A stretch of DNA of 64,000 bases. Source: Secundilactobacillus odoratitofui DSM 19909 = JCM 15043. Lineage in GTDB: Bacteria; Bacillota; Bacilli; Lactobacillales; Lactobacillaceae. The notes beneath the pieces were generated by a model. That model ran no database searches. It was not told where the DNA came from and saw only the letters and a list, made by a program, of their open reading frames with translations. Numbering within the stretch: position 1 is the stretch's first letter; every line of letters starts with the position of its first letter. The position numbers were made by a program, and so were the translations under genes. The stretch is from assembly GCF_001434895.1 (NCBI RefSeq), contig NZ_AZEE01000002.1:1-64000 (forward strand). The letters run 5' to 3'. Below, piece after piece: positions 10,094-54,400 of this stretch.

Positions 10094-10270
10094 GCGCCTC
10101 CGGCTCCCGGTTCTGGGCGTTTCTTGCTGTGGGGCCGGTCCGAGCCCAAGAGCTGTCTCGGACCTCGAATTTGAACCGTGCCAAAGTTCGTGCACGTTTC
10201 AAATTCGTCCCCGACTGGTTCCCAGTCGTTTCACTGCAGGAAACGCCCAGAACCGTCCGCACTACGGCTG
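10094..10270 (+). repeat. Cloverleaf repeat element 1 (subfamily A)
   Basis: The outer stem 10109-10123 / 10240-10254 is a perfect 15 bp. It encloses three hairpins: 10137-10144/10157-10164, 10167-10181/10192-10206 and 10212-10218/10222-10228. Conserved single-stranded blocks are GCTGTGGGGCCGGT at the first junction, TCCCCGACT before hairpin 3, and TTTCACTGCAGG before the closing arm. Ends are GCGCCTCCGGC and GCACTACGGC. Short frames across it are shadows of the palindrome. Confidence 0.85.
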
Positions 10271-10359
10271 ACATTGTAGATATCCATAAGTAAAGTTAGA
10301 TTTGGGTTAACCTCTACATTCTGCTACTGGTTAACAATTTAAATATTTCAAATCAACAC

Positions 10360-10492
10360 ACGACCTATTATTAAATAGGTGCAATTTGCAAGTAATAGTT
10401 AATTTTCCACTTAAAATTGAGGATGACGAACAACGAAAATTTAGCTATTAACTCTGAATCAACTTTAATGCGCCTATTTAATAATAGGTCGT
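10360..10492. repeat. 133-bp inverted-repeat element with 23-bp ends (MITE-like)
   Basis: Bases 10360-10382 and 10470-10492 are inverted repeats matching at 22 of 23 positions. Each arm contains its own small palindrome (ACCTATT-ATTA-AATAGGT). Inner arms near 10389 and 10436 are also partly complementary. It carries no coding capacity and sits exactly between cloverleaf elements 1 and 2. No second copy was seen in the window. Confidence 0.6.
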
Positions 10493-10539
10493 CTATGCCA
10501 AGTAGACTTCAGCTTATTGACGTTTTGCATACGACGTCA

Positions 10540-10732
10540 GCTGGAGAGCAAACAGTGGTATTTTTTGGTGGTGGCAGTGACTAGTCCTCAGTTTGCGCGA
10601 AGCGCTTACTGAGACTGGACGAGTTTAAGACTCGTTGGGGTTTACGAGGCTTAAACTCGAGGTGGAAGACGCGTCAGCGGCTGCAACCGGTCCCACAGCC
10701 ACCACCAAAAAATACCGCTGTTTGCCGGAAGC
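10540..10732 (-). repeat. Cloverleaf repeat element 2 (subfamily B)
   Basis: The outer stem 10550-10574 / 10699-10723 is 25 bp with a single G-T wobble. Inside are a CTCAGT...ACTGAG hairpin and a CGAGTTTAAG...CTTAAACTCG hairpin, plus a weak third one. On the minus strand it reads GCTGTGGGACCGGT at the same place as subfamily A. It lies just beyond the asd terminator. Confidence 0.85.
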
Positions 10733-10757
10733 GTAATCAATAGAAAAACACCAAAAT

Positions 10758-10783
10758 AAAAAGAGCTGCCAAAGCAACTCTCA
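10758..10783 (-). terminator. Intrinsic terminator after asd
   Basis: On the minus strand AGAGTTGC-TTTG-GCAGCTCT is followed by TTTTTATTTT, seven bases after the asd stop. It ends the lysine operon. Confidence 0.85.
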
Positions 10784-10789
10784 AAAAAT

Positions 10790-11887
10790 TTAAGCATTCT
10801 TAGAAGTAATGTACCCCTGAGCCTTAAGTAATTCGGCACATTCAACGGCACCACCGGCAGCACCACGGGCAGTATTGTGAGACAGACCAACAAACTTCCA
10901 GTCGAAAATCTTGTCTTCACGTAACCGACCAATGGAAACGCCCATGCCGTTCTCGAAGTTAACGTCTAAGCGAACTTGTGGCCGATCATCTTCGGTCATG
11001 TACTGAATGAACTGCTTAGGTGCACTTGGTAGGCCTAACCGTTGGGGTTCGCCTTCGTAACTTTCCAACGCGTCAATCAACTCTTGCTTGGTTGGGTTTT
11101 TAGCGAAGTTAACGAACGTAGCAGCAGTGTGGCCATACAAAACGGGAACTCGCAAACACTGTGACGTAATGACAGTACCTTCATCCGGCACGATGCTCTT
11201 CGTATCAGCATCAACGTGGCCCCAGATTTTCAATGGTTCGCGTTCTGACTTTTCTTCTTCACCGGCAATGTATGGAATCACGTTACCTTCCATTTCAGGC
11301 CAGTCCTTAAACGTCTTACCCGCACCAGAAATGGCTTGGTAAGTCGTCGCAATCACTTGCGTTGGTTCGAATTGACGCCATGCAGACAACGCTGGCGTGT
11401 AACTTTGAATCGAACAGTTTGGCTTAACTGCAATGAAGCCACGCTTAGTGCCTAAACGTTCACGCTGATATTTGATGACATCGGTGTGTTCTGGGTTGAT
11501 TTCAGGAATCACCATTGGTACGTCTGGGGTCCAACGGTGCGCACTGTTGTTAGAAACCACTGGCGTTTCAGTCTTAGCATAGGCTTCTTCCAAAGCACGC
11601 GTATCAGCTTTGTCCAAACTGATGGCACTAAATACAAAGTCAACTTGGCTGGCAATCTTATCAACTTGCGCAGCGTCTTGCACAACCATGTCTGAAACGA
11701 CATCGGGCACAGTGCCTTCCAACTTCCAGCGACCATCAACCGCCTGAGCGTAGGTCTTGCCAGCACTGTGTGCGCTCGCTGCAACAGCCACAATCTCGAA
11801 CCAGGGGTGATCTGCGAGAATCTTAATAAACCGTTGACCGACCATCCCCGTGGCACCAATAATACCGACTTTTAACTTATCACTCAT
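10790..11887 (-). CDS. asd: Aspartate-semialdehyde dehydrogenase
   Basis: A 365-residue cytosolic enzyme that reduces aspartyl-4-phosphate to aspartate semialdehyde, the branch point to lysine, threonine and methionine. The N-terminus has the NADP-binding GIIGATGMVGQRF. The catalytic cysteine is in KPNCSIQSYTPAL, and AISGAGKTFKDWPEM follows. The sequence resembles the archaeal/fungal-type subfamily rather than the classic E. coli type (judged from memory of the families). The start is ATG 11887 with GAGGG upstream; the longer frame lacks a ribosome site. It is the last gene of the lysine operon, 86 bases after patA. Confidence 0.93.
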   Translation of the reverse strand: MSDKLKVGIIGATGMVGQRFIKILADHPWFEIVAVAASAHSAGKTYAQAVDGRWKLEGTVPDVVSDMVVQDAAQVDKIASQVDFVFSAISLDKADTRALEEAYAKTETPVVSNNSAHRWTPDVPMVIPEINPEHTDVIKYQRERLGTKRGFIAVKPNCSIQSYTPALSAWRQFEPTQVIATTYQAISGAGKTFKDWPEMEGNVIPYIAGEEEKSEREPLKIWGHVDADTKSIVPDEGTVITSQCLRVPVLYGHTAATFVNFAKNPTKQELIDALESYEGEPQRLGLPSAPKQFIQYMTEDDRPQVRLDVNFENGMGVSIGRLREDKIFDWKFVGLSHNTARGAAGGAVECAELLKAQGYITSKNA

Positions 11888-11973
11888 AACGAATCCCTCA
11901 ACTTCCACACACATATTTCAAATCTAATTTTAATAATGCTAATTAAACTGTATTTGACACAATCAGTCAAGCC

Positions 11974-13161
11974 CTAGGCCTTAATCGAGTCGACAAACGC
12001 TGCCATTCGTTTCATGGCTTCAGCCAAAACAGCATCTGAAGCCGCATAGGAGAAGCGAATGTAGCCCTCACCACCAGCACCAAAAGCACTGCCTGGCACG
12101 CCGCCGACTTTGCCCTTTTCAGCTAAGTCTTCTGCAAAACGAACGTCATCTTGACCATAAGCAGCTGGGATTTTGACGAAGGCGTAAAAGGCGCCACTTG
12201 GCGTTGCCATATCCAGGCCCATCTTGGCGAAGGCCGCTTGTACGAAATCACGGCGCTTCTGATAAGCCTCTCGCATCACGATTGGATCATCTAACCCATT
12301 ATTCAGCGCTTCAGCGGCCGCTGCTTGAGCTGGATTCGATGGTGAGGTGACCATGAAGGCGTGCATCTTAGTTGCATTGGCAATGAATTCGGTTGGACCA
12401 GCAATGTAGCCCATCCGATAACCAGTCATGGCGTGCGACTTCGACAAGCCGTTGATCAAGATCGTCCGTTCTGGAATCACCTTCGCGATTGAGAAATGGT
12501 CAACGCCAAAGGTCAACTCGCTATAAATTTCATCAGCAATCACGTATAAATGATGGTCAGCAATTACCTTAGCCAAGCCTTCTAGCGTCGATTGGGGGTA
12601 TTCAACCCCAGTTGGATTACCAGGATAGTTTAACAAGACGGCCTTCACTGAATCACCCGCTTCGGCCAAAACCTGTTCCAGATGTTCCGGTGTTAACACG
12701 AAACCATCAGCAGAAGTATCCACCTGAATCGTTTCAGCGCCAGCAATCGTGACTAATGGAAAATACAGTGGAAAGGCTGGTGTTGGAATCACAACCTTAT
12801 CACCTGGGTTCAAAATGGTTAGCAAGGTGGCGCAAACTGCTTCAGTCGCCCCAACGGTCGCAATAATCTCAGTTTCTGGATCGTAGTCGAGGTTCTGACT
12901 CGTTTTCAAGTAGTGGTGAATCCCCTGACGAAGGTAAGGCGTCCCCTTTTGTGGCGAATAATGGGAATCATTTTCCGTAATACTCTTAATCGCCGCCTGC
13001 TTTACGTGCTCTGGCACGTTCATATCAGGTTCACCCAAGGTCAATTTAATAATCCCAGGAACCTTCGAAAACTTCTGATCCACTGCCCGAATACCGGACG
13101 GCCCCACTTGATTGAGGCGTTGGTTCACTTGTTGCGATAACTCACTCGCCAATTTTGGCAT
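11974..13161 (-). CDS. patA: N-acetyl-LL-diaminopimelate aminotransferase (PatA-type)
   Basis: A 395-residue fold-type I PLP aminotransferase. Visible are NYPGNPTGVEY, the ADEIYSEL segment, the PLP lysine in INGLSKSHAMTGYRMG, and the substrate-carboxylate arginine in YIRFSYAAS. Position between dapB and asd in the lysine operon assigns it to transamination of N-acetyl-2-amino-6-oxopimelate. ATG 13161 has GGAGTG at the right distance; an in-frame GTG nine bases upstream lies inside that ribosome site. It is clearly paralogous to the aminotransferase at 55527-56696, so specificity rests on context. Confidence 0.88.
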   Translation of the reverse strand: MPKLASELSQQVNQRLNQVGPSGIRAVDQKFSKVPGIIKLTLGEPDMNVPEHVKQAAIKSITENDSHYSPQKGTPYLRQGIHHYLKTSQNLDYDPETEIIATVGATEAVCATLLTILNPGDKVVIPTPAFPLYFPLVTIAGAETIQVDTSADGFVLTPEHLEQVLAEAGDSVKAVLLNYPGNPTGVEYPQSTLEGLAKVIADHHLYVIADEIYSELTFGVDHFSIAKVIPERTILINGLSKSHAMTGYRMGYIAGPTEFIANATKMHAFMVTSPSNPAQAAAAEALNNGLDDPIVMREAYQKRRDFVQAAFAKMGLDMATPSGAFYAFVKIPAAYGQDDVRFAEDLAEKGKVGGVPGSAFGAGGEGYIRFSYAASDAVLAEAMKRMAAFVDSIKA

Positions 13162-13217
13162 GATAGTCACTCCGATTTCACATAAATTAAGAATTCAATA
13201 ATAAGATTATAAAACAA

Positions 13218-13997
13218 TTAAAGAACATTTTCGAGCCCAACGACTAATTCGTGCAGAGACTCAACGTGATCCATCGCGACTTTGACACCGGTCATAAACG
13301 ATTGGCGATCAAATGAATCCTGGCGAATCGTTAAGGCTTCACCCGGACCACCAAAGAGGACTTGTTCGTGAGCGACGTAACCCGGTAACCGAACGGCATG
13401 AATGTGAATGCCGTGATAATCGCCACCGCGAACGCCCGCTAAGCTTTCGGTTTCATCAGGATTACCCTGCTCGTGTTCAGGACGAACTTCATCAATTAAC
13501 TTGGCCGTGCTCAATGCCGTGCCAGAAGGGGCATCCGCCTTGTTATCATGGTGCATCTCGATAATTTCAACATCCGGGAAGTATTTGGCAGCCTCCTGCG
13601 CAAACTTCATCAATAACACGGCTGACATCCCAAAGTTAGGTGCGATCAGCCCGCCCAGTTGTTTAGCACTGGCCAACTGTTGTAATTCAGCAACTTGGGC
13701 ATCCGTTAAGCCCGTAGTGCCGATTACTGGGTGAATACCGTGTTCGATTGCGAACTTGGTGTTGGCGTACACTGCGCTTGGCAAGGTGAAGTCGATCCAA
13801 ATATCAGCATCCGTTTCAATTTGGTCTAAATCATCGAATACTTTAACGGTGGCTGGTAAGTTATAATCAGCTGGATTCAGTGACGTCAACCCACCCGCAA
13901 AACCAGCAACCAATTCATACCCCTCAGTTTCTTCGACTAAGTGCACCGCTTTTTGTCCCATAGCACCGGTAAATCCGGCTACAATTACCTTTGTCAT
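13218..13997 (-). CDS. dapB: 4-hydroxy-tetrahydrodipicolinate reductase
   Basis: A 259-residue NAD(P)H-dependent reductase. The Rossmann motif is [13 protein letters not shown] at the N-terminus. GTTGLT is in the middle. The signature [15 protein letters not shown] carries the catalytic His and Lys. Length is that of the family (about 250-270). Its ATG lies two bases after the dapA stop, so the two are translated together; product of DapA passes directly to DapB. Confidence 0.96.
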
Positions 13998-13999
13998 CT

Positions 14000-14923
14000 C
14001 TAATTAGCTCCTAACTCAACTGGCACATCGTGTAACAACGCATCTGCCTCTAAATCTAAGGCAACGGCCAATTGTTGTTTTTCGGCGTCATTTAACGACA
14101 GAATTGGTAACCGGCAGCCACCAACAGAGAAACCTTGGGCATTTAAGACTGCCTTGACTGGTGATGGTGATGGGAACATGAACAAAGCAGCCATCTTTGG
14201 CGTTAATTGACGCTTCAGTTGACCAGCGGTTGCTAAATCGCCAGCGTACAGTGCGTCATACATTGCCCGCATCTGGGGACCATAAATGTGAGCAGCTACG
14301 GAAATCACACCAGCACCACCAACCACGCGCGCTGATAAAGCCTGAGCGTCTTCACCACTGTAAACGCTGAAGCCTTCAGCGCTGTGTTCTACCAAGTACT
14401 CAATGTCTTCGATTGAGGTACATTGCTTGACCCCTGCAATCATGGGGTGTTGTGATAATTCAACCACAGTGTCATTTGCCATCGTCACGCCCGTTCGACC
14501 AGGAATGTTATAAATGATGATTGGCTTTTCAGCGGCATCAGCAACGGCTGTAAAGTGGGCAATCATGCCTCGTTGGTTAGGCTTGTTGTAGTAAGGGACC
14601 ACCACGAGTTCATAATCAACACCGGCAATTTGGCTAACCTCACGCGTAAAATCAATGGTTTCCTGGGTATTATTACTCCCGGTCCCAGCAATCACTGGTA
14701 CACGACCGTTAATGATTTGAGCAAATCGCGTATACAGTTCAATCTTTTCATCGTGACTGAGCGTTGGTGTTTCACCAGTTGTACCACCAATCACAAATCC
14801 TTTGTTGCCAACGGCCAGCAAGTGCTCCGTCAACCGTTCGAGTGCTGGATAGTCAATATGATTCTGTTCGTCAAATGGTGTAATAATTGCGGTCATGAGA
14901 TCAACATTGTTTAAAGTTGTCAT
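14000..14923 (-). CDS. dapA: 4-hydroxy-tetrahydrodipicolinate synthase
   Basis: A 307-residue class I aldolase-type (beta/alpha)8 barrel that condenses pyruvate with aspartate semialdehyde. It shows [10 protein letters not shown] (pyruvate-binding Thr-Thr), the catalytic tyrosine in VVPYYNKP, and the Schiff-base lysine in IAGVKQCTS. The start is ATG 14923 with an AAGGGGA ribosome site. It is fourth in the lysine operon, 35 bases after the deacetylase. Confidence 0.96.
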
Positions 14924-14958
14924 TTTAAAGTCCCCTTTTCATTAACACGTGCTTACGG

Positions 14959-16116
14959 TTATGCGGTCATCCGGTCGTTCAAAAAGGCCGTGATTGCGTT
15001 GATGCCTTTACTAATTGCTGATTCATCTGGATTTAGCGTTGCTGAGTGAAGTTGTGAATCATCTTCAACGCCCAGCCAAAACATGGTGCCCGGAATCTTA
15101 GATAGTAGGTAGCCAAAGTCCTCACCAGTCATTGCCGGCTTCGTTTCGACAAAGGTCACCTCAGGATTATTTTTCATAAAGTTAATGAAACGTTTCGTCA
15201 ACTCTGGGGCATTTTCAACCGGAAGATAGCCACCCTGGTTCAAGCTGACTGTCACTTCGGCGTTAAAACTCTTAGCGATGCCTTCACCAACTTCGCGCAA
15301 GCGCTGATCAATTTTTTCAATCATCACCTGAGTTAAGCCGCGAATCGTCCCTTCGATGTGAGCGTGACCCGCAATCACGTTACGAATCGTGCCGGCCTCT
15401 AGCTTACCCAAGGTAATGACACCACCCTCGATGGGATCAATACTACGCGAGATGATGGTTTGAACTTGGCCAATCAACTGAGCGGCTGCCACCACCATAT
15501 CGTTGGCATCTTGTGGGTACGCGGCGTGACCACCTTTACCTTCAAGGTCAATATTGACTTCGGTTGTACCGGCAAACAGTGTCCCGAGTCGAGCACCAAT
15601 TGCACCAGCTGGTAAATCGGGGTTATCGTGTAACCCGTAAAATTCATTCGGTCGCCATTCGCCCTCAAATACGTTAAGCTCGTAAGCTAATTTACCACCG
15701 TTCTCGCTTTCCTCAGCTGGCTGGAAGAAGAAGATCAGGTTATCAACGGGCTGATGTTCTGAGAAATAACTCAACACACCTAACGCAACGGTCATGTGAA
15801 TATCATGTCCACAAGCGTGCATCACACCTGGATTCTTGGAAGCAAACGGCAAACCCGTTTTTTCGCTGACAGGAAGCGCATCAATATCGGTCCGATAACC
15901 AAGCGTTCGTTTCGGGTTGCTGCCTGTGACACGTACCAACAGCGCCGTTGGTAAGTCTTTAATGTGTTTGACTTGCAGATTGGTTTGATCAAAACTGGCA
16001 ATCACTTTTTCCAGGTAGGCCGAAGTACGAACTTCCTTCAAGGCCAACTCTGGCATTGCGTGTAAATCACGACGAATCTGAATCAAGGCTTCTTCTGTCA
16101 GTACTGTCATTGTCAT
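14959..16116 (-). CDS. dapL: N-acetyldiaminopimelate deacetylase (M20 family)
   Basis: A 385-residue M20 amidohydrolase removing the acetyl group from N-acetyl-LL-diaminopimelate. Metal ligands are visible in HACGHDIHMTVALG, QPAEESENGG, YGLHDNPDLPAGAIG and the C-terminal LHSATLNPDE; the dimerisation-domain hallmark GKGGHAAYPQ is present. The symbol follows the B. subtilis usage (ykuR). The start lies on the dapH stop: GTG at 16119 overlaps it, ATG at 16116 follows immediately, and another ATG is at 16110; the exact initiator is uncertain. Operon position excludes a general hippurate hydrolase role as the main one. Confidence 0.9.
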   Translation of the reverse strand: MTMTVLTEEALIQIRRDLHAMPELALKEVRTSAYLEKVIASFDQTNLQVKHIKDLPTALLVRVTGSNPKRTLGYRTDIDALPVSEKTGLPFASKNPGVMHACGHDIHMTVALGVLSYFSEHQPVDNLIFFFQPAEESENGGKLAYELNVFEGEWRPNEFYGLHDNPDLPAGAIGARLGTLFAGTTEVNIDLEGKGGHAAYPQDANDMVVAAAQLIGQVQTIISRSIDPIEGGVITLGKLEAGTIRNVIAGHAHIEGTIRGLTQVMIEKIDQRLREVGEGIAKSFNAEVTVSLNQGGYLPVENAPELTKRFINFMKNNPEVTFVETKPAMTGEDFGYLLSKIPGTMFWLGVEDDSQLHSATLNPDESAISKGINAITAFLNDRMTA

Positions 16117-16826: not shown

Positions 16827-16871
16827 GAATTTATCCTCATCTCTCTGATATGAATTATAATAGGAAGTTTT

Positions 16872-18257: not shown

Positions 18258-18290
18258 CAAATTTAATCACATAAATTAATGGTCTCATTT

Positions 18291-18463
18291 TCGATAGCGC
18301 CCCGCGAGCTATTGCCCGCGACAGTTCGTGGCCTCTTAAACCACGTCCCAGCTAACTAAGTTCTGTAAAGCCTAGCGCTTCGGCAACCGCCCCTTTTAGT
18401 CTGCTTCATCGTCATTACAGTGACTTCACAGACTGACTCTTGTTGGTTGCGACCTCTTCGATT
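18291..18463 (-). promoter_or_regulatory. Lysine riboswitch (L-box)
   Basis: Reading the minus strand, the L-box landmarks appear in order: GAAGAGGTCGCAACC, AAGAGTCAGTCTGTGAAG, AGGGGCGGTTGCCGAAGCG, and a long arm closing with GGGGCGCTATCGA. These match the consensus AGAGGTGCG ... GAGGGG.NGCCGAAG known from lysC leaders. Lysine binding should favour the downstream terminator and shut off the seven-gene operon. Confidence 0.92.
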
Positions 18464-18472
18464 TATTCAAAG

Positions 18473-18572: not shown

Positions 18573-18787
18573 GCGCCTTTCGGCCCACTGCCACTCCGAC
18601 TATCAGCTTGGCGCCGCTACTGTGGGACCAGCTTCAGCCACGCATAACCCGCGTGGCTTACGCTTCGCTTCTGAGCCTCAAAACCCGAGTCTCAGAAACG
18701 TCCAGAGGTTGTAAGCGCTAGAAGCGCCAACAACCACTTGTCACTGCAACCGCGCCAAGCTGATAGTCTCCGTTCTCGTTGCGGAGT
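18573..18787 (+). repeat. Cloverleaf repeat element 3 (subfamily B)
   Basis: The outer stem 18598-18614 / 18752-18768 is a perfect 17 bp. Three hairpins follow: a strong GCCACGC...GCGTGGC, then TCTGAG...CTCAGA, then GGTTGT...ACAACC (both read on the minus strand). The junction TACTGTGGGACCAGC corresponds to the family's GCTGTGGG block. It stands directly upstream of the lysine-operon promoter. Confidence 0.85.
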
Positions 18788-19083
18788 AGGTAAATTAAAC
18801 GATAACTTTGAACAGAATCTTAAACGGATTCTTTCAAGACCATCATCACTGTTAAAGTGACATAGAGTACTTCTACGTGGCAACGTTTTTTATTGCGTAA
18901 ATCATCAGGTACTTTTTAATACTAGACGTGTTTACTGAGTTCAATTTCATTGTGTTCTCGGAAAACTCGTTGAGTCGTTTAATTAAATTGGGCAAAAACT
19001 AACAATCGAAGTGGCGTGCGTACTTAACTTTAGGACCATGTCATAATCGTTTCTTGAATGCGTTCATCAATTCTTCCAAATTA
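18788..19083. other. Spacer between cloverleaf elements 3 and 4
   Basis: No gene is supportable here. It is AT-rich with a few small hairpins, and lies between the divergent lysine operon and aspartokinase gene. Confidence 0.5.
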
Positions 19084-19264
19084 GCCGCAGAGTCACTCGC
19101 TTTTTTCGGTGGCAGTGACAAGAACTTGTTGGCGCTTCAGCGGTTACAAGTTCTGGACGTATTTGAGACTCGGTGCTTTACCGTGGCTCAAATATGAGGC
19201 GTAAGACGCATCGCGGCTGAAGCCGGTCCCACAGCTACCGAAAAAAGCGAGTGACCGGAGGCGC
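19084..19264 (-). repeat. Cloverleaf repeat element 4 (subfamily B)
   Basis: The outer stem 19093-19110 / 19237-19254 is a perfect 18 bp. Inner hairpins are AGAACTTGT...ACAAGTTCT and TATTTGAG...CTCAAATA. GGTCCCACAGC near the right end is the family junction block in minus orientation. It forms a (+)/(-) pair with element 3. Confidence 0.87.
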
Positions 19265-29649: not shown

Positions 29650-29826
29650 GTCACCTTCGGCTCCCGGCAAGGGTGGGACCCGCTGTGGGGCCGGTTCAAG
29701 CCCAAATTCAGTCTTGAACCTCGAAGTTGAACCGTGCCAAAATGCGTGCACGTTTCAACTTAGTCCCCGACTAGTATCCCAGTCGTTTCACTGCAGGTCC
29801 CACCCTTGCCGTCCGCACTACGGCTT
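29650..29826 (+). repeat. Cloverleaf repeat element 5 (subfamily A)
   Basis: The outer stem 29666-29680 / 29796-29810 is a perfect 15 bp of sequence unlike element 1. Hairpin 1 is GGTTCAAG/CTTGAACC, where element 1 has GGTCCGAG/CTCGGACC. Junction blocks GCTGTGGGGCCGGT and TTTCACTGCAGG are unchanged. It follows the antiporter gene. Confidence 0.87.
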
Positions 29827-29925
29827 AGATTGAAGTTAAACGAAACACGATGTCAATTTCGTTGAAATTTATTGATAAAATAATTTATGTCAATCGTGAT
29901 TCAGAAAAGCTAACCCACCGTGTAA

Positions 29926-30080
29926 GCCGTAGTGCCAGAAGTCAGTCATTTTAACGGGTGGCACTGGACGTTTCTGAGACTCGTGGGTTTCGAGGCTCAG
30001 AAGCGAGACGGAAAACGCGAAGCGGTTGCAGTCGGTCCCACAGCTACTTGTTAAAATGACTGACTGGCGGCTGAAGGCGG
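29926..30080 (-). repeat. Cloverleaf repeat element 6 (subfamily B, one hairpin lost)
   Basis: The outer stem 29941-29955 / 30050-30064 is a perfect 15 bp. The TTTCTGAG...CTCAGAA hairpin and the GGTCCCACAGC junction remain. The hairpin present at the left of other B copies is missing, which shortens the copy. Left edge is GCCGTAGTGCC, the shared family end. Confidence 0.85.
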
Positions 30081-36973: not shown

Positions 36974-37150
36974 TCGCCTTCGGCAGCCTGTCAGGGTGGG
37001 CACCTGCTGTGGGGTCGGTTCGAGCCAAATGACGGTCTTGAACCTCGAATCAAAGCCACACTCAAGCCCGTTGTGTGTCTTTGATTCGTCCCCGGCTGTA
37101 ACCAGCCGTTTCACTGCAGGTACCCACCCTGACAAACTGCGCTACGGCTG
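36974..37150 (+). repeat. Cloverleaf repeat element 7 (subfamily A)
   Basis: The outer stem 36989-37004 / 37119-37134 pairs at 15 of 16 positions. Hairpin 2 is GAATCAAAG/CTTTGATTC and hairpin 3 is CGGCTG/CAGCCG; both differ from element 1 by compensatory changes. Junction blocks are kept. Confidence 0.87.
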
Positions 37151-37334
37151 TACACAGTTCACTGCTTCAATAATTGCGGACAAGTTCACCATTTGCACAA
37201 AAAATAGTTTATAGGGTATCTTTGACTCTCATAAACTTTTCCAATCCAGCATTTGAATTGTGCACCCACTTCTATCCATAAATACGCGAACCTCATCTGT
37301 ATATCTCCATTATTTTGATTCAACCCACTAGATC
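37151..37334. other. Spacer between cloverleaf elements 7 and 8
   Basis: AT-rich sequence without a supportable gene or clear signal. Confidence 0.5.
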
Positions 37335-37523
37335 AGCCGAAGTGCCACCAGCCGTCTTGGTCCGTAGCAGTGACTAGTCCTTGTTAGCGCGCAGCGTTTA
37401 CAAGGACTGAACGGTTTTGAGACTCGGCGAATTTTCCGAGGCTCAAAATCGAGGCGGAAGACGGGGTACCCGGCTGCAGCCGGTTCCACAGCAACGGGCC
37501 AAGACGGCTGGTGGCCGGAGGCG
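37335..37523 (-). repeat. Cloverleaf repeat element 8 (subfamily B)
   Basis: The outer stem 37344-37360 / 37499-37515 is a perfect 17 bp. Inner hairpins are AGTCCTTGT...ACAAGGACT and GGTTTTGAG...CTCAAAATC. Ends GCCGAAGTGCC and CCGGAGGCG match the family. Confidence 0.87.
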
Positions 37524-37578: not shown

Positions 37579-37788
37579 CTATTGCTGAAACGTGTTCGCC
37601 AAAACAAGCTTTAAAAAATAACACGATAGGGCCCGCACCCCCTCGCCGGGGGCACGGGCCCTTCACTGTGCTATTGCCGAAACGTGTTCAACCGCACGTC
37701 TAGTTCTAAAAAAATAAGGGCATCCCGTGCACCCCCTCACCGGGGGCACCCGTGATGCCCTTATTTTTTTAGAACTAGACGTGCGGTT
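37579..37788 (-). terminator. Two tandem related hairpins downstream of the xylosidase gene
   Basis: CTATTGC(T/C)GAAACGTGTTC recurs at 37579-37597 and 37671-37689, a 92-base period. Each is followed by a GC-rich hairpin sharing the core CACCCCCTC.CCGGGGGCAC: 37628-37662, and the much longer 37690-37788 with about 45 paired positions. The long hairpin ends seven bases beyond the xylosidase stop and has A/T runs in its stem, so it should stop transcription from both sides. Confidence 0.75.
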
Positions 37789-37795
37789 TTACACT

Positions 37796-46307: not shown

Positions 46308-46483
46308 GCGCCTCCGGCTCCCGGTTCTGGCCGTTTCCTGCTGTGGGGCCGGTCCGAGCCAAAGAGCTGTCTCGGGCCTCGAAGTTGAACCGTGCCAAAG
46401 CCCCTGCACGTTTCAACTTCGTCCCCGACTGGTTCCCAGTCGTTTCACTGCAGGAAACGGCCAGAACCGGGAACACTACGGCT
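46308..46483 (+). repeat. Cloverleaf repeat element 9 (subfamily A)
   Basis: The outer stem 46323-46341 / 46450-46468 is a perfect 19 bp. It differs from element 1 by matched changes on both arms (TGGCC/GGCCA for TGGGC/GCCCA). All three hairpins are intact. No partner element is found next to it. Confidence 0.87.
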
Positions 46484-46575
46484 TACATCATACCTACAAC
46501 AATGGTCAAGTATCTGTGTTACGTTCAACAAGGCCTTAAATTGAAACTGTTGTAAGTTAATTGGCCTCTCAATAA

Positions 46576-46768: not shown

Positions 46769-46817
46769 CTACTAGAAATCAGAAGACTTGCTCTCATAAT
46801 CGGCTGAAAAATGCGTA

Positions 46818-47206: not shown

Positions 47207-47240
47207 TCTCCCAGTTTTTTCAATTTTTTTGAAAAAACTG
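47207..47240 (+). promoter_or_regulatory. TCTCCCA-T-tract palindrome upstream of the Mga-like gene
   Basis: TCTCCCA is followed by the palindrome CAGTTTTTTCAA/TTGAAAAAACTG. A closely similar block (TCTCCCATTTTTTTTAATTTTTTCAAAAAA, minus strand) occurs at 52223-52263. Shared regulatory site is inferred. Confidence 0.5.
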
Positions 47241-47351
47241 ACGATTTAACTTGGGCTGCAACTCTGATTTACGGGACAAACACGAGTATAATAAGGTATA
47301 ATTTAGAGTAGGAATAATTCGTACTTTAAATGATTGGGATGGCTGATTTAG

Positions 47352-48848
47352 ATGAACTACACTTTCTTATTAACTAAAAACGACTACATCTGCTACAGTA
47401 TTCTATCGTTGTTTACTCAGCAGACTAATCTGGTGTTGAACAAGGATGCGTTAGCTCAAGAACTGTCCCTTACAACTTACCAACTCAACAAATACTTCGA
47501 AAGCATCAACACTGATTTAGCGCTGATTGCCGGTAAGACACCTTGCTATATTGATGAACCCAATAAGGGTCAGTGGCAGGCACATGGATTAAACACCTAC
47601 TGCCTCCAAAAAGCAGCGTTGCTCTACCTCAATCGATCACCACTCTTCACCGCTTTGGAGTATCAATTCTTCTACGAAAACTTATACACCAAGAAGGAAT
47701 ACGTTGCCGCTAATTTCATGAGTAGCTCAGTATTTTATCGTTCCTTAGATTCACTCGAGGCGATTCTCAAAAAGCACGGCTTCTACCAAGCTAGCAGCTT
47801 GTATGCTGGCAAGGAATTTACGATTCGGCTACATCTATTCCAACTCTATTACACGATGTATAACAGTGTTTCGGATCCATTCGAAGCGCTGAACCCTTTG
47901 ATCAATGACCTGATTGAAGCCATTCAAGCTGGCTTACCTGATCAACTGGATCCGACTCAAGAAACAAAGTTGTCAACTTTTTTGCGAATTTGGTTATTGC
48001 GCCAGTTAGATAAGCATCCAATCAGTCATCATCAGCGGCTGCAAGTTGAACCGGACGAGCGTAATCAAGCCATGCTGTCACGTTTACAAACGTTATTAGC
48101 TGATCAACTCACATTGAGCAATGATGAATTTAACTATCTTTACAGTTTTCTCATCGCCCAGGGTTATCTCGGCAGTGAACAGATGCATGCTTTATCTGCC
48201 GGGATTCCGGCTATTGACGAGTTAACGAACCAGTTTTTAACCGAAATTCGTTCTAGCAACGTCTTATTGGCAACCAATTTTGTTAATGACCAGTTGCTTG
48301 AAGATAGCTTGCTGAGCATTCACTTTCAGTTCACAACTTTTTACATTGAGCCAACAACGTTCATCAATCCTGAACAAGTGCAATTCTTTGCCGAACTTTA
48401 TCCCGCCTTTGACGTTGCGGTTTCACACAATATCACGAAGCTCCAACGCCGGGAAGATCTACGTTTGACTCAGAAAATGGCTGTTAACTTGTACTTTAGT
48501 TACATGTTCGCCTTGATCAACTCGATTCCACCTGAACTGATGCGCGACCAGGTTCATATCTGCGTCGACTTCTCTCAAGGAACGCTTTACACCAATTATG
48601 TCATTCAATCACTGGACGCATTTAATCACGCCCACATCATTATCGATCCACACTTAACGCCGGAAACGGATATTTATATTTCTGATTTTCATTCACCGAA
48701 AGTCGATCGCACCCAAGTTATCTGGCAAGATCCGCCAACTCCGGTTGATTGGTCTAACTTGGCCGACTTAATCTTAGATACCAAACGGGACAAGTTACCA
48801 CAACTTTTCCCAGAACAGAAAGGAAGTGACGTTGATGACACGCAATAA
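47352..48848 (+). CDS. Mga-like transcriptional regulator of surface protein
   Basis: A 498-residue cytosolic protein. The N-terminus (about 10-60) has a winged-helix segment (LNKDALAQELSLTTYQLNKYFESIN), and residues 80-180 fit an Mga-type second HTH (FFYENLYTKKEYVAANFMSSSVFYRSLDSL). Helical PRD-like regions follow, and the C-terminal 100 residues look like an EIIB-like fold (VHICVDFSQGTLYTNYV). Length is that of Mga/AtxA regulators. It overlaps the surface-protein gene by 14 bases, so the two are coupled, as in loci where Mga controls adhesins. No conventional strong ribosome site was found before ATG 47352. Confidence 0.8.
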   Translation: MNYTFLLTKNDYICYSILSLFTQQTNLVLNKDALAQELSLTTYQLNKYFESINTDLALIAGKTPCYIDEPNKGQWQAHGLNTYCLQKAALLYLNRSPLFTALEYQFFYENLYTKKEYVAANFMSSSVFYRSLDSLEAILKKHGFYQASSLYAGKEFTIRLHLFQLYYTMYNSVSDPFEALNPLINDLIEAIQAGLPDQLDPTQETKLSTFLRIWLLRQLDKHPISHHQRLQVEPDERNQAMLSRLQTLLADQLTLSNDEFNYLYSFLIAQGYLGSEQMHALSAGIPAIDELTNQFLTEIRSSNVLLATNFVNDQLLEDSLLSIHFQFTTFYIEPTTFINPEQVQFFAELYPAFDVAVSHNITKLQRREDLRLTQKMAVNLYFSYMFALINSIPPELMRDQVHICVDFSQGTLYTNYVIQSLDAFNHAHIIIDPHLTPETDIYISDFHSPKVDRTQVIWQDPPTPVDWSNLADLILDTKRDKLPQLFPEQKGSDVDDTQ

Positions 48849-51039
48849 TAAAACCCAAACCAAATGGCTCGCTGCCTGTTTATTCTCTGCCACCGTATTA
48901 GCTGGTTTACAGCTTCAGATGGCACCAGTATCAGCCAACACAATCACGACTACGGTCACAACAACTAATACCAATACGAATAATAACAATGGCGTGCTGT
49001 CTGGCATCGTTACGGGTTCATTTGCTCACAATCCTGGTGGTAGCACCACGACAACCTCATCAACGTCGTCTAACTCTGGCACCTCAACAGAGACTTCCGG
49101 TGCTGGTGTGACTTCTGCCGTCGCTTCTGGCGCAGCTAGTGGCTCATCCAGCACAGCCGTTTCATCAGAAACACAGTCATCAAGTGTTTCTGCATCCACT
49201 GACAACACCAGCTCAGCAACTACAAATTGGTTCTCTGGTGCTACCTCGGGGGTTAATGTCAGCGCTTCTTCAAGCACTCCTGCCACGACAAGTGATCTTG
49301 CTTCGGTTGTGACATCAACTAATGCCGATTCTTCAGCTCAAAGTGCTTTTGCAACTAGCAATGCATCTACCACCAGTAATGCCAGTTACCAGGCTTCGCT
49401 ATCTGCTAGCTATGAAACTTCGAGCAGCAATACTAGTGCGATTTCCAGCTTAACCAGCAGCGAAGTGATGAGTAGTATTTTGTCTTCACTTAGTGCTGCC
49501 AGCAATAGTGCTACATCATCAATCATGTCAGATCAAAGCACTACGAGTAGTTTGGTTAGCAACGTTGCTTCAGCATCAAGCGAAGCGGAAGTTACCGCGA
49601 CAACTGGCGAATTGATTATTCACCGAGTAAACGGTTTGACACAGCAAACATTGAGTAGCACTCAACTGACTGTTCCGGTTGGTCCTGTCACAGCTGATAG
49701 TGCGACCTACGTTTCACAATTAACTGGTTATGGTTATGTTGGTGATTTGGCAACCGAATTACCAACAACCTTTACGACTGGTGTCCAATCAGTCACTCTG
49801 ACTTACATGCCACTTTCTGCCATTGTTGTGCGCTACGTGGATGCAACTGATCCAACTCACGTGCTTTGGACTTATACGCTGCCAACTAATTACGCGACGC
49901 TTGGTCAAACCTATCAAACAAACTATACTGACCTACCATTCAGCGGTTACCAATACGTCTATGCAACAAGTAACGCCACCGGAACAATTCGTCAGACTGT
50001 TCAATCTTTGACGAATGCTAACTCAGTGGTCGTGACTTACTATTACAAGCCAACCAGTTCAACAAGTCAGGTTGATACGTCGAGCTGGCAGTTGACGACT
50101 GCTACGACACAAGTCACCGGTAGTTCCGCGTACAGCATCGGTGTGTCACTCACGACTGATCAATCTACTTCTACGCTGATTGGCAGCATTGGCCCCGTTG
50201 TTTTAACGGGCAATTCTGCGACTGACGTGTCGAATCCAGCAACTACGACCGGAGAACTGAAAACAAACGCTGCAACTGACACCACAACGACAACCAGCGA
50301 GGCTGACTCAACTAATATTCACTTTGTAACATCACTTGGAACCGAAGTTGGTCAAACCACTGTAACGGGTCAAACTGGCACTCGTGTCAACGATGCGCTC
50401 AACCCGACACTGACTGATCTCCGTCAACAAGGTTACGTGGTCTTAAACAACGGCGTGTCACCGACCCAACACTTTGGTAATACTGAAACAGATTACACAG
50501 TCAAAGTGTCAAAGCCCGACACCAGCGCTAATCCGTTTAAGCGCCCAACCATGCCACTTGTCGCACAGTTAGGCAACGCCTCTACATCCGTTAGCGTTAC
50601 TCATGATGTCACCAGCAACGAACTTGGACAGTCGCCTGCAGCTGCTTTAAATAACCTTTCGGCTTCTGGTCAAAACGCGACCCGATCAACCACGTCAACA
50701 GATCAGCCGACTAATTCAACGCAAACAAACCAACCTGCTAGTGCTCAATCTACTAATCAGCAAAGTAACAGTAATAACAGCACGAATCACGCTACAAACT
50801 CAAACAACAACACGACTAACGCTGCGCAACAACAGCAAAATATCGCCAAGAAAGCGACGACCAAGACGGCACTCGACAACCAACAAAGTGAACAAATTCA
50901 CCGAGACGCGGTTGCTAACGATGGTCAGTCACACGGTTCTGGTAGCGCAATTGGTGGCGGTGGCAGTAACCCTGTCACTGGCTTGGCAGCCTACTTTATT
51001 AGTCTGAACGGCAAAATTAACTTAGGTGCGCGAAATTAG
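48835..51039 (+). CDS. Ser/Thr-rich MucBP-like secreted surface protein
   Basis: A 734-residue exported protein. A signal peptide (KWLAACLFSATVLAGL ... VSA-N) is followed by a low-complexity Ser/Thr/Ala region to about residue 255. Then come MucBP-like beta modules (GELIIHRVNG, AIVVRYVDATDP with QTYQTNYTDLPFSGYQYV, and a third IHFVTSLGTEVGQ). A long Gln/Asn/Thr-rich stretch ends in GGGGSNPVTGLAAYFIS. NPVTG looks like a decayed LPxTG-type signal, but the membrane helix and basic tail are incomplete. ATG 48835 follows AAAGGAAG and lies inside the regulator's end. Adhesion role is inferred from domains. Confidence 0.85.
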   Translation: MTRNNKTQTKWLAACLFSATVLAGLQLQMAPVSANTITTTVTTTNTNTNNNNGVLSGIVTGSFAHNPGGSTTTTSSTSSNSGTSTETSGAGVTSAVASGAASGSSSTAVSSETQSSSVSASTDNTSSATTNWFSGATSGVNVSASSSTPATTSDLASVVTSTNADSSAQSAFATSNASTTSNASYQASLSASYETSSSNTSAISSLTSSEVMSSILSSLSAASNSATSSIMSDQSTTSSLVSNVASASSEAEVTATTGELIIHRVNGLTQQTLSSTQLTVPVGPVTADSATYVSQLTGYGYVGDLATELPTTFTTGVQSVTLTYMPLSAIVVRYVDATDPTHVLWTYTLPTNYATLGQTYQTNYTDLPFSGYQYVYATSNATGTIRQTVQSLTNANSVVVTYYYKPTSSTSQVDTSSWQLTTATTQVTGSSAYSIGVSLTTDQSTSTLIGSIGPVVLTGNSATDVSNPATTTGELKTNAATDTTTTTSEADSTNIHFVTSLGTEVGQTTVTGQTGTRVNDALNPTLTDLRQQGYVVLNNGVSPTQHFGNTETDYTVKVSKPDTSANPFKRPTMPLVAQLGNASTSVSVTHDVTSNELGQSPAAALNNLSASGQNATRSTTSTDQPTNSTQTNQPASAQSTNQQSNSNNSTNHATNSNNNTTNAAQQQQNIAKKATTKTALDNQQSEQIHRDAVANDGQSHGSGSAIGGGGSNPVTGLAAYFISLNGKINLGARN

Positions 51040-51062
51040 CGATTTTTAATCGCTTTTTTGGC
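51039..51062 (+). terminator. Terminator after the surface-protein gene
   Basis: AGCGATTTTTAATCGCT is followed by TTTTTGG; it overlaps the stop codon. Confidence 0.8.
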
Positions 51063-51244
51063 GACTTCTCGAATCCAAATCTGAATCCCTTCTCAAGGAA
51101 CAATATTTATATCAATCTACTGAGGTAGAAACGTCACAAACAGACAAACGTGTATCTAACTATTGGGTCCACCGATATTTAGTCTTTTACTGAACATCTG
51201 CAATCAGTGATAATATACCGTAAGTCTTCGCTTGCTAGATGTAA

Positions 51245-51314
51245 ACCAAAAACACATCAATGTTTTCAACTCCAACGGCCCCCCGTTAGCTGAAAACATT
51301 GATGTGTTTTTGGT
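51245..51314. terminator. Perfect 24-bp hairpin after the AP2-domain gene
   Basis: Bases 51245-51268 and 51291-51314 are exact inverted repeats with A and T runs inside the arms and a GC-rich loop. It can terminate both strands. Confidence 0.88.
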
Positions 51315-51325
51315 TAAATACTTTC

Positions 51326-51820
51326 TTATGCGTTAACCCGCTTTTCTTCGCGTGCCAACAATGGTCCAAGGTATTGATCAACCGCTTTCTCACGCGCTTC
51401 AACTGCATCGTCAAATCTCACAAAACTGTGATTTAAAACGAGCGTCCCTCTAACCATCAAGCGCGCAACCCAGTGCTTCGAACGCGTATCAAAGGAAACG
51501 CCAGCAACGCCAGAATGGTTATTCTTACGTCGGTTGAGCACTGAAATTAGGCTGGTGCCTTCGACTTGTCGTAGGTTACTCACGTTACCACGGTGGGCTA
51601 ATAACTTGTTATTAGTCTGCATGACTTCGCGACCACGATCACGTCTCAAACATCCACAACTCTTCGTGCTCCCACTACGTAGCAGGTAACCATCGACAAC
51701 AACCTCTTTGCCGCAATCACAGTGGCAACGCCACATTGCGTTACCGTTCTTGTTTTTACCAGCAAAGCCAACTACCGTTAGTCGGGAAAAACGTTTATTT
51801 GTTAAGTCTATTCGTCTCAT
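51326..51820 (-). CDS. AP2-domain protein with N-terminal zinc motif
   Basis: A 164-residue protein. The N-terminal part has a treble-clef-like cysteine set in WRCHCDCGKEV and KSCGCLRRD. The C-terminal part (NHSGVAGVSFDTRSKHW ... RFDDAVEAREKA) is an AP2/ERF-like DNA-binding module. This combination is common in phage- and homing-endonuclease-associated proteins; no HNH nuclease residues are seen. ATG 51820 has AGGAG nine bases before. It is 15 bases after the small membrane-protein gene. Mobile origin is likely, function unknown. Confidence 0.82.
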   Translation of the reverse strand: MRRIDLTNKRFSRLTVVGFAGKNKNGNAMWRCHCDCGKEVVVDGYLLRSGSTKSCGCLRRDRGREVMQTNNKLLAHRGNVSNLRQVEGTSLISVLNRRKNNHSGVAGVSFDTRSKHWVARLMVRGTLVLNHSFVRFDDAVEAREKAVDQYLGPLLAREEKRVNA

Positions 51821-51835
51821 CGTTAATCGCTCCTA

Positions 51836-52123
51836 TCATCGTTGTGCTGACGCTGATTGCGTCGCCCGTTGTGTTTGTTTTCTAGCCGTCTTCTTTTGTC
51901 GAGGATGACGGGTTCGATAAGCATCAAGTTCAAACAATCCGAGTAAGCTGAGTAGTAGTCCTAAACCAATAAATACGGCTTCAGTTAGGTCGTCGGTGTT
52001 TTGAGTCAGGTTCGTCGTTGCAGCCTGAACAGTTGTTGGTAATTGCGTGATGCCAAAACTAAATGCTGCACCTAACGATACCCAAACATAGCCGACTTTA
52101 GACCTTAATCGTGTCGTCTGCAT
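51836..52123 (-). CDS. Small exported membrane protein
   Basis: A 95-residue protein with a signal peptide (KVGYVWVSLGAAFSFGITQL, cleavage near VQA), a short exposed Thr/Asn-rich segment, one transmembrane helix (EAVFIGLGLLLSLLGLF) and a highly basic tail rich in Arg, Lys and Gln. It resembles the C-terminal anchor of a wall protein but has no LPxTG. ATG 52123 has GGAGGGGG. It is co-transcribed with the AP2-domain gene. Confidence 0.75.
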   Translation of the reverse strand: MQTTRLRSKVGYVWVSLGAAFSFGITQLPTTVQAATTNLTQNTDDLTEAVFIGLGLLLSLLGLFELDAYRTRHPRQKKTARKQTQRATQSASAQR

Positions 52124-52222
52124 AGTCACTCAGCCCCCTCCAAAGATTGTTTGATGCGCTTTTCTTTACACTCTTTATATTACGCTGAAACCCTTTAAAA
52201 TCAACGGTTTTCGGCCGGTTAC

Positions 52223-52263
52223 GTCTCCCACTTTTTTTGAAAAAATTAAAAAAAATGGGAGAC
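52223..52263 (-). promoter_or_regulatory. Second TCTCCCA-T-tract palindrome
   Basis: GTCTCCCA...TGGGAGAC arms surround an A/T-only core. It sits 100 bases upstream of the small membrane-protein gene and resembles the site at 47207-47240. Confidence 0.5.
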
Positions 52264-52355
52264 CAAGCGTGGAGAACTTTGGTTAATGCCGTAATAGCCA
52301 TGTTTCTCCCGTGATGGTGTTTTTGTATACGCCTTACTTCGACCATTCGAGACAA

Positions 52356-52393
52356 AAAACGACCCAACACTATGATAGCCGTTGAGTCGTTTT
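52356..52393 (-). terminator. Terminator after the metalloprotease gene
   Basis: On the minus strand AAACGACTCAAC pairs with GTTGGGTCGTTT and is followed by a T-run. Confidence 0.85.
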
Positions 52394-52405
52394 ATAATGC
52401 CTTGA

Positions 52406-53170
52406 TTAATCTGCTAATATCACCGCCAACTTACCGCGGCTGATATCCGTTTTACTAAGCGGGTTCGCCCAAATATTGGCCGATGTCACGTCATCATAAT
52501 GATAAATATCCGAGAACCCAATGCCCGCATACATTAAATCAGCAGGATTCTTAGAGTGTGACAGCCCTAAGCTATGACCAAATTCATGCGCCAAAATCCG
52601 TGAATACTCAACTTGACGTGCTACATCAGTGGTAGTGTCATCAATTGAACTCTTCACTAAATCGATTTGATTGCCATTTTGACGAGCATAATTTAGCTTC
52701 ATATATTTATTGATATCTAGCCATTCATGATTAAAGAACGGCTGTGAAACCTCTACAGACTGGCTGGTAGGCCGCCACCAAGCAATCTGCTCACCATCAC
52801 CGGCACTACTAGCAGAAGTCAGTTTAATTGTCAGTGTGTGGTGTTTTTTGGTTCCCGTTACAAAAACGGTTTGGCCAAGCTGACTGTTCCAATCTCTCAT
52901 GGCAACCTTAATTGACTTCGTTAGCCCTTTTGTACGAGTCTGATCGTACACCCAAATTTTGGTGTGATTATCAAAAGCGGTCTGATAGCCCTGATCAATC
53001 CCGTACGTCGCCATCAACTCATCTTCGTGTAGTTGATAGTAACTCGCAGTGTGCGCTAGAACACGCTTGGTAGGAGTCGGTGTCCGCTTGCTTTTGGCGG
53101 CCGCTGTCGTAGGACCAGCGACAGCCGTAACTGCTAAAACCGTTGTGAGTAAAATCATCCAGCGACGCAT
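52406..53170 (-). CDS. Exported matrixin-like zinc metalloprotease (paralogue 1)
   Basis: A 254-residue secreted protein. A signal peptide (MILLTTVLAVTAVAGPTTAAA) is followed by a pro-like region, then a metzincin domain. The zinc site is ILAHEFGHSLGLSHS (HExxHxxGxxH), and LMYAG downstream supplies the Met-turn. DWNSQLGQTVFVTGT is shared with the second copy at 61247. ATG 53170 follows GGAGGG; an ATG two codons earlier is inside that site. It is 49 bases after the esterase gene, probably one transcript. Substrate unknown. Confidence 0.85.
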   Translation of the reverse strand: MRRWMILLTTVLAVTAVAGPTTAAAKSKRTPTPTKRVLAHTASYYQLHEDELMATYGIDQGYQTAFDNHTKIWVYDQTRTKGLTKSIKVAMRDWNSQLGQTVFVTGTKKHHTLTIKLTSASSAGDGEQIAWWRPTSQSVEVSQPFFNHEWLDINKYMKLNYARQNGNQIDLVKSSIDDTTTDVARQVEYSRILAHEFGHSLGLSHSKNPADLMYAGIGFSDIYHYDDVTSANIWANPLSKTDISRGKLAVILAD

Positions 53171-53219
53171 AATCATCCCTCCATTTCGATGTCATCAGTG
53201 TGTCCTTCACCAGAGTTAA

Positions 53220-53984
53220 TCAGTCGGCCTCATCAATAATTGGAAGTGTCTGAGTCAAAAAAGTTGCGATATCCGTAGCTAATTGACGCCCAGCTGGACT
53301 GTATGTCATCACGTGGGGCGCATCTGGATAGCTGTGATAGGTAACGGGTGCACTTGGTGCCAAGTAGTCAGCCAACTGACGGCCAATCGTTCGATCCAAA
53401 AGTTCGTCGGCCTCAGCCTGGGCAATAAAGACGGGCTTGGTTAACCCGTTGATTGCATCATGCACAGGGATCGTATATTCAGAAATCGCCGTTAGCATCT
53501 CACTGATGTGGTGCGTCAAAAAAGCCATTTTCGGTTCAATCTCGTTTTGGGGTAACTTCAACTTCTGATACCAAGCCAGACATTCCTGCAAAAAGCGGTC
53601 AGCAACGCGACTCTTATCCACTGGAAACAGTGGTGTATCAATCGTGCCGCCCGCCACAACCTCATCAAACTTGGCCAGTGCCTTCATTGCGAATAATCCA
53701 CCAAGTGATTCGCCAAAAATAGCGATTTGATGGTGACCATCAACTTCAAGCTGGTGAATGGCCGCAATGGTATCCTGCCACCATTGTTCCGGTCGTCCTT
53801 GCATAAAAATCTGCTTAGGGTCTGCGGTCCCATGACCGGTAAACATCGGTCCCATCACGGTATAGCCTTGCTTTTGCAGACTTCTACCGAGCACTCGAAC
53901 ATCGGTCGGGGTGCCAGAGAAAGTGTGTAATAAAATAACAGCGGGTTGGCCGCCCTTAAAATAAAATGGTTCTGGAAGTGCCAT
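53220..53984 (-). CDS. Alpha/beta-hydrolase, carboxylesterase-like
   Basis: A 254-residue cytosolic serine hydrolase. The nucleophile elbow is FGESLGGLFA, the acid is in AQAEADELLD, and the histidine in YPDAPHVMTY. HTFSGTPTDVRVLGRSL supplies the oxyanion-hole region. Pattern and length resemble Est30-type carboxylesterases and monoacylglycerol lipases. ATG 53984 has GGTGAGG. First gene of a two-gene unit with the metalloprotease. Confidence 0.87.
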   Translation of the reverse strand: MALPEPFYFKGGQPAVILLHTFSGTPTDVRVLGRSLQKQGYTVMGPMFTGHGTADPKQIFMQGRPEQWWQDTIAAIHQLEVDGHHQIAIFGESLGGLFAMKALAKFDEVVAGGTIDTPLFPVDKSRVADRFLQECLAWYQKLKLPQNEIEPKMAFLTHHISEMLTAISEYTIPVHDAINGLTKPVFIAQAEADELLDRTIGRQLADYLAPSAPVTYHSYPDAPHVMTYSPAGRQLATDIATFLTQTLPIIDEAD

Positions 53985-54224
53985 GCGCCTCACCACCTTT
54001 CAAAAATTGATATCGTTTTCACCTTCTATTTTACACTAAAATCAGTGAAAAAGAAGCTGGTGTGCACTTGAAATCGATGGGCTTAATCCGAGTTTTCCCG
54101 TCTTATTGACGCTAAGATTAATAGCGTGCGGGCCCGTTACATCAGAGATTAATTCAGTTTTAAAATTTAAATTACAATTAACTTAGTATCATAATCTGTA
54201 ATAGCCATTGTGCGATCTATATTC
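53985..54224. other. Intergenic region upstream of the esterase
   Basis: AT-rich; it must hold the esterase promoter. No clear gene or structured element is seen before cloverleaf element 10. Confidence 0.4.
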
Positions 54225-54400
54225 AGCCGGAGGTAGGCTGTCAGGGTCGTGACCTGCAGCGGAACGACTGGACACAGTCGGGGACGAATTGAAGACATAC
54301 AACGGGCTTTGGTATGTCTTCAATTCGAGGCTCGAGACCGATTTTTGGCTCGAACCGGCCCCACAGCAGGTCACGACCTTGACGGACTACTGTAGGCGAC
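54225..54400 (-). repeat. Cloverleaf repeat element 10 (subfamily A)
   Basis: The outer stem 54239-54254 / 54369-54384 pairs throughout with two G-T wobbles. Read on the minus strand, hairpin 1 is GGTTCGAG/CTCGAGCC, hairpin 2 GAATTGAAG/CTTCAATTC and hairpin 3 CGACTG/CAGTCG. No partner element adjoins it. Confidence 0.86.

Follow-up and report, generated by a model that had tools for sequence, protein, structure and literature searches.

Ten cloverleaf arms in the 64-kb window

The window analysed here, the first 64,000 nucleotides (nt) of contig NZ_AZEE01000002.1 of Secundilactobacillus odoratitofui DSM 19909, carries ten copies of an intergenic element of 156-197 nt that folds into a cloverleaf. 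An earlier note on this DNA had picked out all ten; reading and folding confirm that they are present and strongly structured, and they are exactly the matches of a covariance model in positions 1-64,000, a match by construction since nine of the ten are in the model alignment. The note overlooked the convergent pairs, four of which lie in the window. Most copies are not independent but arms of paired units, in which the left arm lies on the plus strand, the right arm on the minus strand and a spacer in between.

Every arm was recognised by reading, folding and model match. Unit 1 consists of a subtype A arm (10095..10271, +) and a subtype B arm (10537..10733, -), and its spacer (10272..10536) contains two inner palindromes, CCTATTNNNNAATAGG at 10364..10379 and a second one at 10473..10488. 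In unit 2 the left arm (18573..18767, +) is of a B2-like subtype whose 3' end differs and the right arm (19081..19263, -) is of subtype B; the unit lies about 100 bp upstream of a lysine riboswitch (18287-18466, minus strand; 92.7 bits, Rfam). Unit 3 pairs a subtype A arm (29652..29827, +) with a B1 arm without the third hairpin (29924..30079, -), and unit 4 a subtype A arm (36975..37149, +) with a subtype B arm (37333..37523, -). Two neighbouring strong hairpins at 37628-37790 share a GCACCCCCTC-CCGGGGGCAC core, the second being flanked by long A and T runs, and by eye they resemble a bidirectional terminator. Both remaining arms, at 46309..46485 (+) and 54223..54398 (-), are of subtype A and single, being partnerless among the 138 places listed for the genome.

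Read in the plus orientation, an arm runs from its 5' end through the outer stem (15-25 bp) and GC-T-GTG, which pairs with CAC-T-GC, to a short stem GGAC/GTCC enclosing hairpins H1 and H2; hairpin H3, TCACTGC, the closing strand of the outer stem and the 3' end follow. Folded as DNA, three of the ten copies (the left arm of unit 1 and the right arms of units 2 and 4) gave z-scores of -9.4, -9.3 and -10.5, with none of 200 shuffles equally stable. Folding bears out the shared plan that had been proposed, except that three hairpins are usual and not universal, the copy at 29926 lacking the third. The outer stems, described as unrelated between copies, do differ strongly between subtypes and are by eye visibly related within one. 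The supposedly common ends GCGCCTCCGGC and GCACTACGGC belong to some subtypes and not to all, the copy at 18573 having another end.

Pairing, kept mismatches and the folded strand

Pairing was examined in two alignments. Alignment A1 holds 60 copies from the S. odoratitofui genome (59 of 80 cores and one hand-placed copy; the cores left out were 4 whose third hairpin is long, 3 that were poorly anchored and 14 dropped for brevity), and A2 the best 150 of 212 foreign hits. In A1, 94.2% of pair cells are paired and 28 of 41 pairs show changes on both sides, as had been claimed for the inner stems. A covariation test counted 352 two-sided changed cells against 95 in the mean of column shuffles and 20-63 when the partners were slid, and the covariation score was 0.380, compared with 0.132 for the shuffles and no more than 0.091 for slid partners. 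A fold constrained by pairing is supported.

Certain mismatches are kept within these stems. The C.T mismatch of H2 is present in 222 of 233 aligned copies, 77 of 83 from the own genome and 145 of 150 from elsewhere (the foreign ones include 16/18 in Secundilactobacillus similis, 22/22 in genome G029 and 103/106 in named loci). For that of H1 the counts are 74 of 83 own copies and 87 of 150 foreign ones, the remainder being mostly C-G, and for a T.T mismatch at the root 64 of 83 own copies. CTAC, which is GTAG on the minus strand, stands at the 3' end in 37 of 44 own arms of the CTNCGGC end type; this end is absent from 39 of the 83.

The earlier note left open whether the selected fold was one of RNA or of DNA; the fold stands, and few G.T pairs and the opposite-strand placement of the arms favour DNA. 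When helices were found regardless of G.T, 83 own copies gave 4180 Watson-Crick, 25 G.T and 84 A.C pairs, and 106 named-locus copies gave 5156, 64 and 68. Counted by columns, the own alignment has 3050 Watson-Crick, 40 G.T and 72 A.C pairs and the foreign alignment 5263, 211 and 112. RNAs are usually richer in G.U. All four Watson-Crick pairs occur in the stems, and G.T is wholly absent from many columns where several of them are found; pair 141/173 of A2, for instance, has 142 Watson-Crick pairs of four types, no G.T and no A.C. Together with the C.T mismatch kept in H2, such stems speak for folded DNA more than for folded RNA. A control on tRNA acceptor stems (22 calls, 15 distinct; 80 Watson-Crick, 5 G.T, 3 A.C and 17 other) was unusable because the trimming was faulty. 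Assignment of the folding strand from A.C against G.T was also dropped, as the excess was inconsistent between sets (helix counts of 84/25 in own copies, 34/3 in S. similis, 27/24 and 68/64 in two others) and reversed on the foreign columns.

A family of structured non-coding RNAs or cis-regulatory leaders would account for the strong covariation, the extragenic position and the G.T-rich columns of the foreign alignment, where most G.T pairs fall in four columns (63, 48, 35 and 16), one of them mostly unpaired. Strong covariation does not by itself prove a functional RNA, however, and the stem columns that vary most have few G.T pairs. One transcript across a unit would read one arm in sense and the other in antisense, so that a transcript is unlikely as the working form. 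Gene context is mixed, the open reading frames (ORFs) flanking 51 own clusters being tail-tail in 20 cases, tandem in 23 and head-head in 6, with 2 at a locus edge. Comparison with Rfam returned only the lysine riboswitch in the window at gathering scores and no match for the arms in five loci at E values up to 1. We regard an RNA family as quite unlikely.

Copy number, range and convergent units

Seeded with the ten copies, an iterated profile search returned 90 rows from the window and 47 own-genome stretches; 80 of the rows lie outside the window, and a few are fragments or opposite-strand shadows. With the covariance model, trained on the 60 own-genome copies, at least 138 places were found in the genome (140 matches less one opposite-strand shadow and one partial hit, with 150 of 605 candidates scored). 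A stretch of own contig C5 of about 594 kb (about 85916-680181) has none of the 138 listed places, compared with about 6 copies per 100 kb elsewhere.

Many copies were also found in other lactobacilli. In a search of 60 genomes, S. odoratitofui included, 15 matched, and S. similis (G010), G029 and S. odoratitofui had at least 58 candidates each. The listed pattern matches include Levilactobacillus mulengensis, L. cerevisiae, L. wangkuiensis and L. lanxiensis, Companilactobacillus hulinensis, C. nantensis, C. huachuanensis and C. insicii, Lactiplantibacillus mudanjiangensis and S. similis. Every scored locus of these species matches the model at an E value of 0.01 or less except L115 (the sole L. 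cerevisiae locus), L133 and L169 (207 bases). Outside the Lactobacillaceae the best model score was 26.7 bits, with 20 of 34 pattern loci scored. A metagenome-assembled genome of Steroidobacter (L114, L138, L148 and other CALMII loci) has many exact matches to the junction pattern; its scored loci reach at most 26.7 bits, and its repeat is probably unrelated to the cloverleaf arms. In agreement with the earlier note, no named family of this shape was found in open PMC papers, the literature covered, and the repeat is apparently undescribed so far. In the accessible part of PMC2267715, Lactobacillus is mentioned once, in a table row for L. johnsonii.

The arms obey a strict orientation rule. 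Among the 138 listed places, all 46 neighbour pairs closer than 1.5 kb are plus then minus. In a further set of model hits, those within 600 bp of each other comprise 27 +-, 6 ++, 8 -- and no -+ pairs, and within 2 kb 33 +-, 8 ++, 16 -- and 7 -+, which indicates that neighbouring arms point towards each other, in places two deep. Arms of one unit also travel together: across 32 own units, when one arm of two units is at least 0.82 alike the other averages 0.745, compared with 0.666 +/- 0.015 in shuffled controls (highest of 200 shuffles, 0.713).

Whole units are dispersed in S. similis, where homologous spacers and terminal repeats recur between unrelated flanks. Their order is terminal inverted repeat, arm, spacer, cloverleaf-like arm on the opposite strand and terminal inverted repeat, the repeat words being 703-887 bp apart in the 8 of 15 fetched loci where both were found. 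The terminal-repeat word has 118 and 122 occurrences at up to 2 mismatches (0 and 0 for a reversed control), and by eye several units stand directly after the T-run of a terminator. Compared among six units, the arms are 0.84-0.93 alike, the spacers 0.62-0.77, the left terminal repeat 0.79-0.81 and the right one 0.88. This terminal repeat is absent from the own-genome matches, all 14 matches to repeat plus arm covering the arm alone. In S. odoratitofui, the 16-nt palindrome CCTATTNNNNAATAGG occurs at 14 sites, 11 of them 78-161 nt 3' of an arm core and two in the spacer of unit 1, so that at least one own subfamily has a spacer that goes with its arms. Two palindromes about 300 bp apart (C4:105987-106002 and C4:106291-106306) have no listed arm within 6 kb and are perhaps an armless unit.

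The units are extragenic, ORFs of at least 200 codons being overlapped by none of 51 own clusters, none of 18 in S. similis and none of 20 in G029. In G029 a plus and a minus arm 1.2 kb apart (L108, 1434-2916) enclose an ORF that by eye we take to be a FusB/FBP-like gene. A link to dnaA was considered and dropped; dnaA lies on own contig C24, 2 kb from one arm, with no pattern seen.

The regularity of the arrangement, with flanking ORFs often some 100-150 nt away, might also be expected of a chromosomal site for a host protein of nucleoid structure, segregation or supercoiling that is maintained in place. By our own reading, four own loci (L008, L010, L011 and L029) have a relative's arm at the corresponding place and side, and the long stretch of C5 without a listed copy hints at an uneven distribution. 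Comparison at the other own loci whose orthologous neighbourhood was fetched shows differences, however, or no matching arm, and the positions shared across genera carry different subtypes, for which reason they were rejected as proof of a maintained function. Copy numbers vary greatly among relatives, as judged with a model built from one genome, and the arm cores evolve near the rate of fourfold sites. A host site is, on this evidence, very unlikely.

Stem rewriting, probable mobility and known systems

The source of the stem compensation was examined in sister species. Over 11 orthologous locus pairs from three Levilactobacillus species, identity was 0.945 in coding sequence, 0.849 at fourfold sites, 0.863 in arm cores and 0.826 in spacers. 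A closer comparison used 23 orthologous arms, those aligned under 85% or lying at an edge being excluded. Of their 818 pairs, 37 have changed on both sides yet remain Watson-Crick, where about 7.4 double changes would be expected under independence and a third of these (about 2.5, our own estimate) would be paired; two retained arms that align poorly (identity 0.68 and 0.65) supply 10 of the 37. There were also 66 single changes and 8 double changes that leave the pair unpaired. Divergence was 0.095 at paired and 0.112 at unpaired sites. The changes are block-wise: H3 stems swap within a small set common to loci and species, with AGCTGAG/CTCAGCT (14), AACTGAG/CTCAGTT (11) and GGCTGGG/CCCAGCC (10) leading among 105 copies. 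That arms recombine is seen at L173/L181: compared with L. wangkuiensis, L. lanxiensis has an arm duplicated in tandem there (249 bp).

Template switching has been proposed to keep hairpins perfect (PMC8794818, in the part available). As blocks are replaced with their pairing preserved and at near-synonymous rates, template switching or gene conversion is probably the source of some of the compensation. Such repair should erase the H2 mismatch, and its retention keeps selection on the folded form in the explanation. The two-sided changes had been taken as the mark of selection and not of mere descent; the kept H2 C.T mismatch speaks for that interpretation, and the block-wise change and the similar rates of paired and unpaired sites in sister species speak against it.

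On balance we lean towards reading the elements as the inward-pointing ends of a DNA unit, extragenic and non-coding, which has spread among lactobacilli much as REPINs do, though with far larger ends. The unit is probably REPIN-like, non-coding DNA and mobile. Each end is a cloverleaf that keeps the H2 mismatch and, less generally, those of H1 and the root; many ends also carry GTAG as a tag on the minus strand. The arms may fold while a strand is single during replication, and a putative single-stranded DNA recombinase would recognise, on both arms, the boundary tags and the hairpins with mismatches, after which the unit would be copied or moved into intergenic DNA. The long hairpins might also switch templates and exchange blocks with other copies, which would let the sequence wander with the stems still paired. 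A bolder and less likely reading is that this is mobile DNA of a new class, its cloverleaf ends read by such a recombinase or replicated from their own hairpins, with stems that drift and with pairing and mismatch fixed.

Several observations weigh against a REPIN-like mobile unit. Arm cores are hardly more conserved than spacers or fourfold sites, the root T.T mismatch is kept in just 19 of 150 foreign copies (T-A prevailing there), and G.T pairs are not negligible in the foreign columns. Single arms make up 46 of the 138 listed own-genome places, and an unfiltered search at 17 single loci found no partner arm. Where own-genome units have nearly the same arms, their spacers do not align (mean z 0.3, -0.1 and 0.2 in three groups), in a test with the power to detect similarity of the S. 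similis kind, and among the named loci 3 of 85 clusters do overlap ORFs of at least 200 codons. Y1_Tnp was found neither in S. odoratitofui nor in L. wangkuiensis or C. nantensis, and no ORF in nine long gaps was read as a transposase. No clean empty site was seen, the indels between sister species being deletions, the 249 bp tandem duplication or chimeras.

Y1_Tnp occurs in 11 of 21 genomes queried without visible relation to the repeat, and a Y1/RAYT mover was rejected on this ground and for its absence from the own genome. SbcD, present in all six genomes queried, was uninformative as a discriminator. Two of the nine long gaps hold, by eye, host-like genes. Two queries had no match in plasmids, viruses gave no exact match, and no autonomous transposon relative was found among the nine gaps, plasmids and viruses, DDE families not being searched. 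The exact matches listed for the S. similis repeat word include no plus-to-minus pair 1-4 kb apart.

A derivative of a DNA transposon, such as a miniature inverted-repeat transposable element (MITE) or foldback element, could be moved by a DDE transposase acting at terminal inverted repeats, the cloverleaves being incidental and tidied by template switching or conversion. The terminal inverted repeats of S. similis do lie outside the cloverleaves, the stems change block-wise at near-neutral rates, and no coding sequence was recognised in the nine long gaps. Blind correction of hairpins, however, should erase the H2 C.T mismatch, which is kept nearly throughout, and by eye no target-site duplication is evident at the S. 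similis ends. In the six S. similis units the cloverleaves are more alike than the spacers and the left repeat, though not than the right repeat, and no match to that terminal repeat was found in the own genome. Taken together, this origin seems unlikely.

If the units are such a new class of mobile DNA, lactobacilli with high copy numbers would be a ready system for watching stem rewriting. The abundant repeat, with its strict orientation rule and its clear record of pairwise stem rewriting, opens two questions to testing: whether DNA hairpins remain perfect through selection, template switching or conversion, and by what means large folded repeats move in a genome that has no RAYT.

Pneumococcal BOX and Bacillus cereus bcr1 are likewise structured intergenic repeats; they are not known to have a convergent paired plan. 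MITEs and foldback elements resemble the units in being non-coding and dispersed and, in S. similis, in the terminal inverted repeats; they differ in that here arm structure is kept beyond sequence and no parent transposon was found where looked for. Palindrome-associated elements of the IS200/IS605 type have mismatched end hairpins, as here, and no target duplication, of which by eye none is evident at the S. similis ends; the ends described here are inverted and cloverleaf-shaped, and the own genome has no Y1_Tnp. Integron attC sites are recognised as a folded strand through imperfect palindromes of free sequence, a likeness to what is proposed for the arms. REPINs are extragenic, occur in many copies as inverted doublets and have conserved ends, a variable spacer and compensatory changes (PMC3116915, in the part available), traits that the cloverleaf units share. 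Two inverted palindromic units form the REPIN dispersal unit, and this is found here in the uniform convergence and co-travel of the arms, though a third of the listed places are single. GTAG at one end of many arms may be a further likeness to the REPIN/RAYT system (cf. PMC3733652, whose main text, as far as available, names neither lactobacilli nor Firmicutes). The arms are cloverleaves of about 156-197 nt, compared with REP palindromes of 20-40 nt, and the own genome has no RAYT (Y1_Tnp) gene; because of these differences in size and enzyme we describe the units as REPIN-like in their working and do not class them as REPINs.

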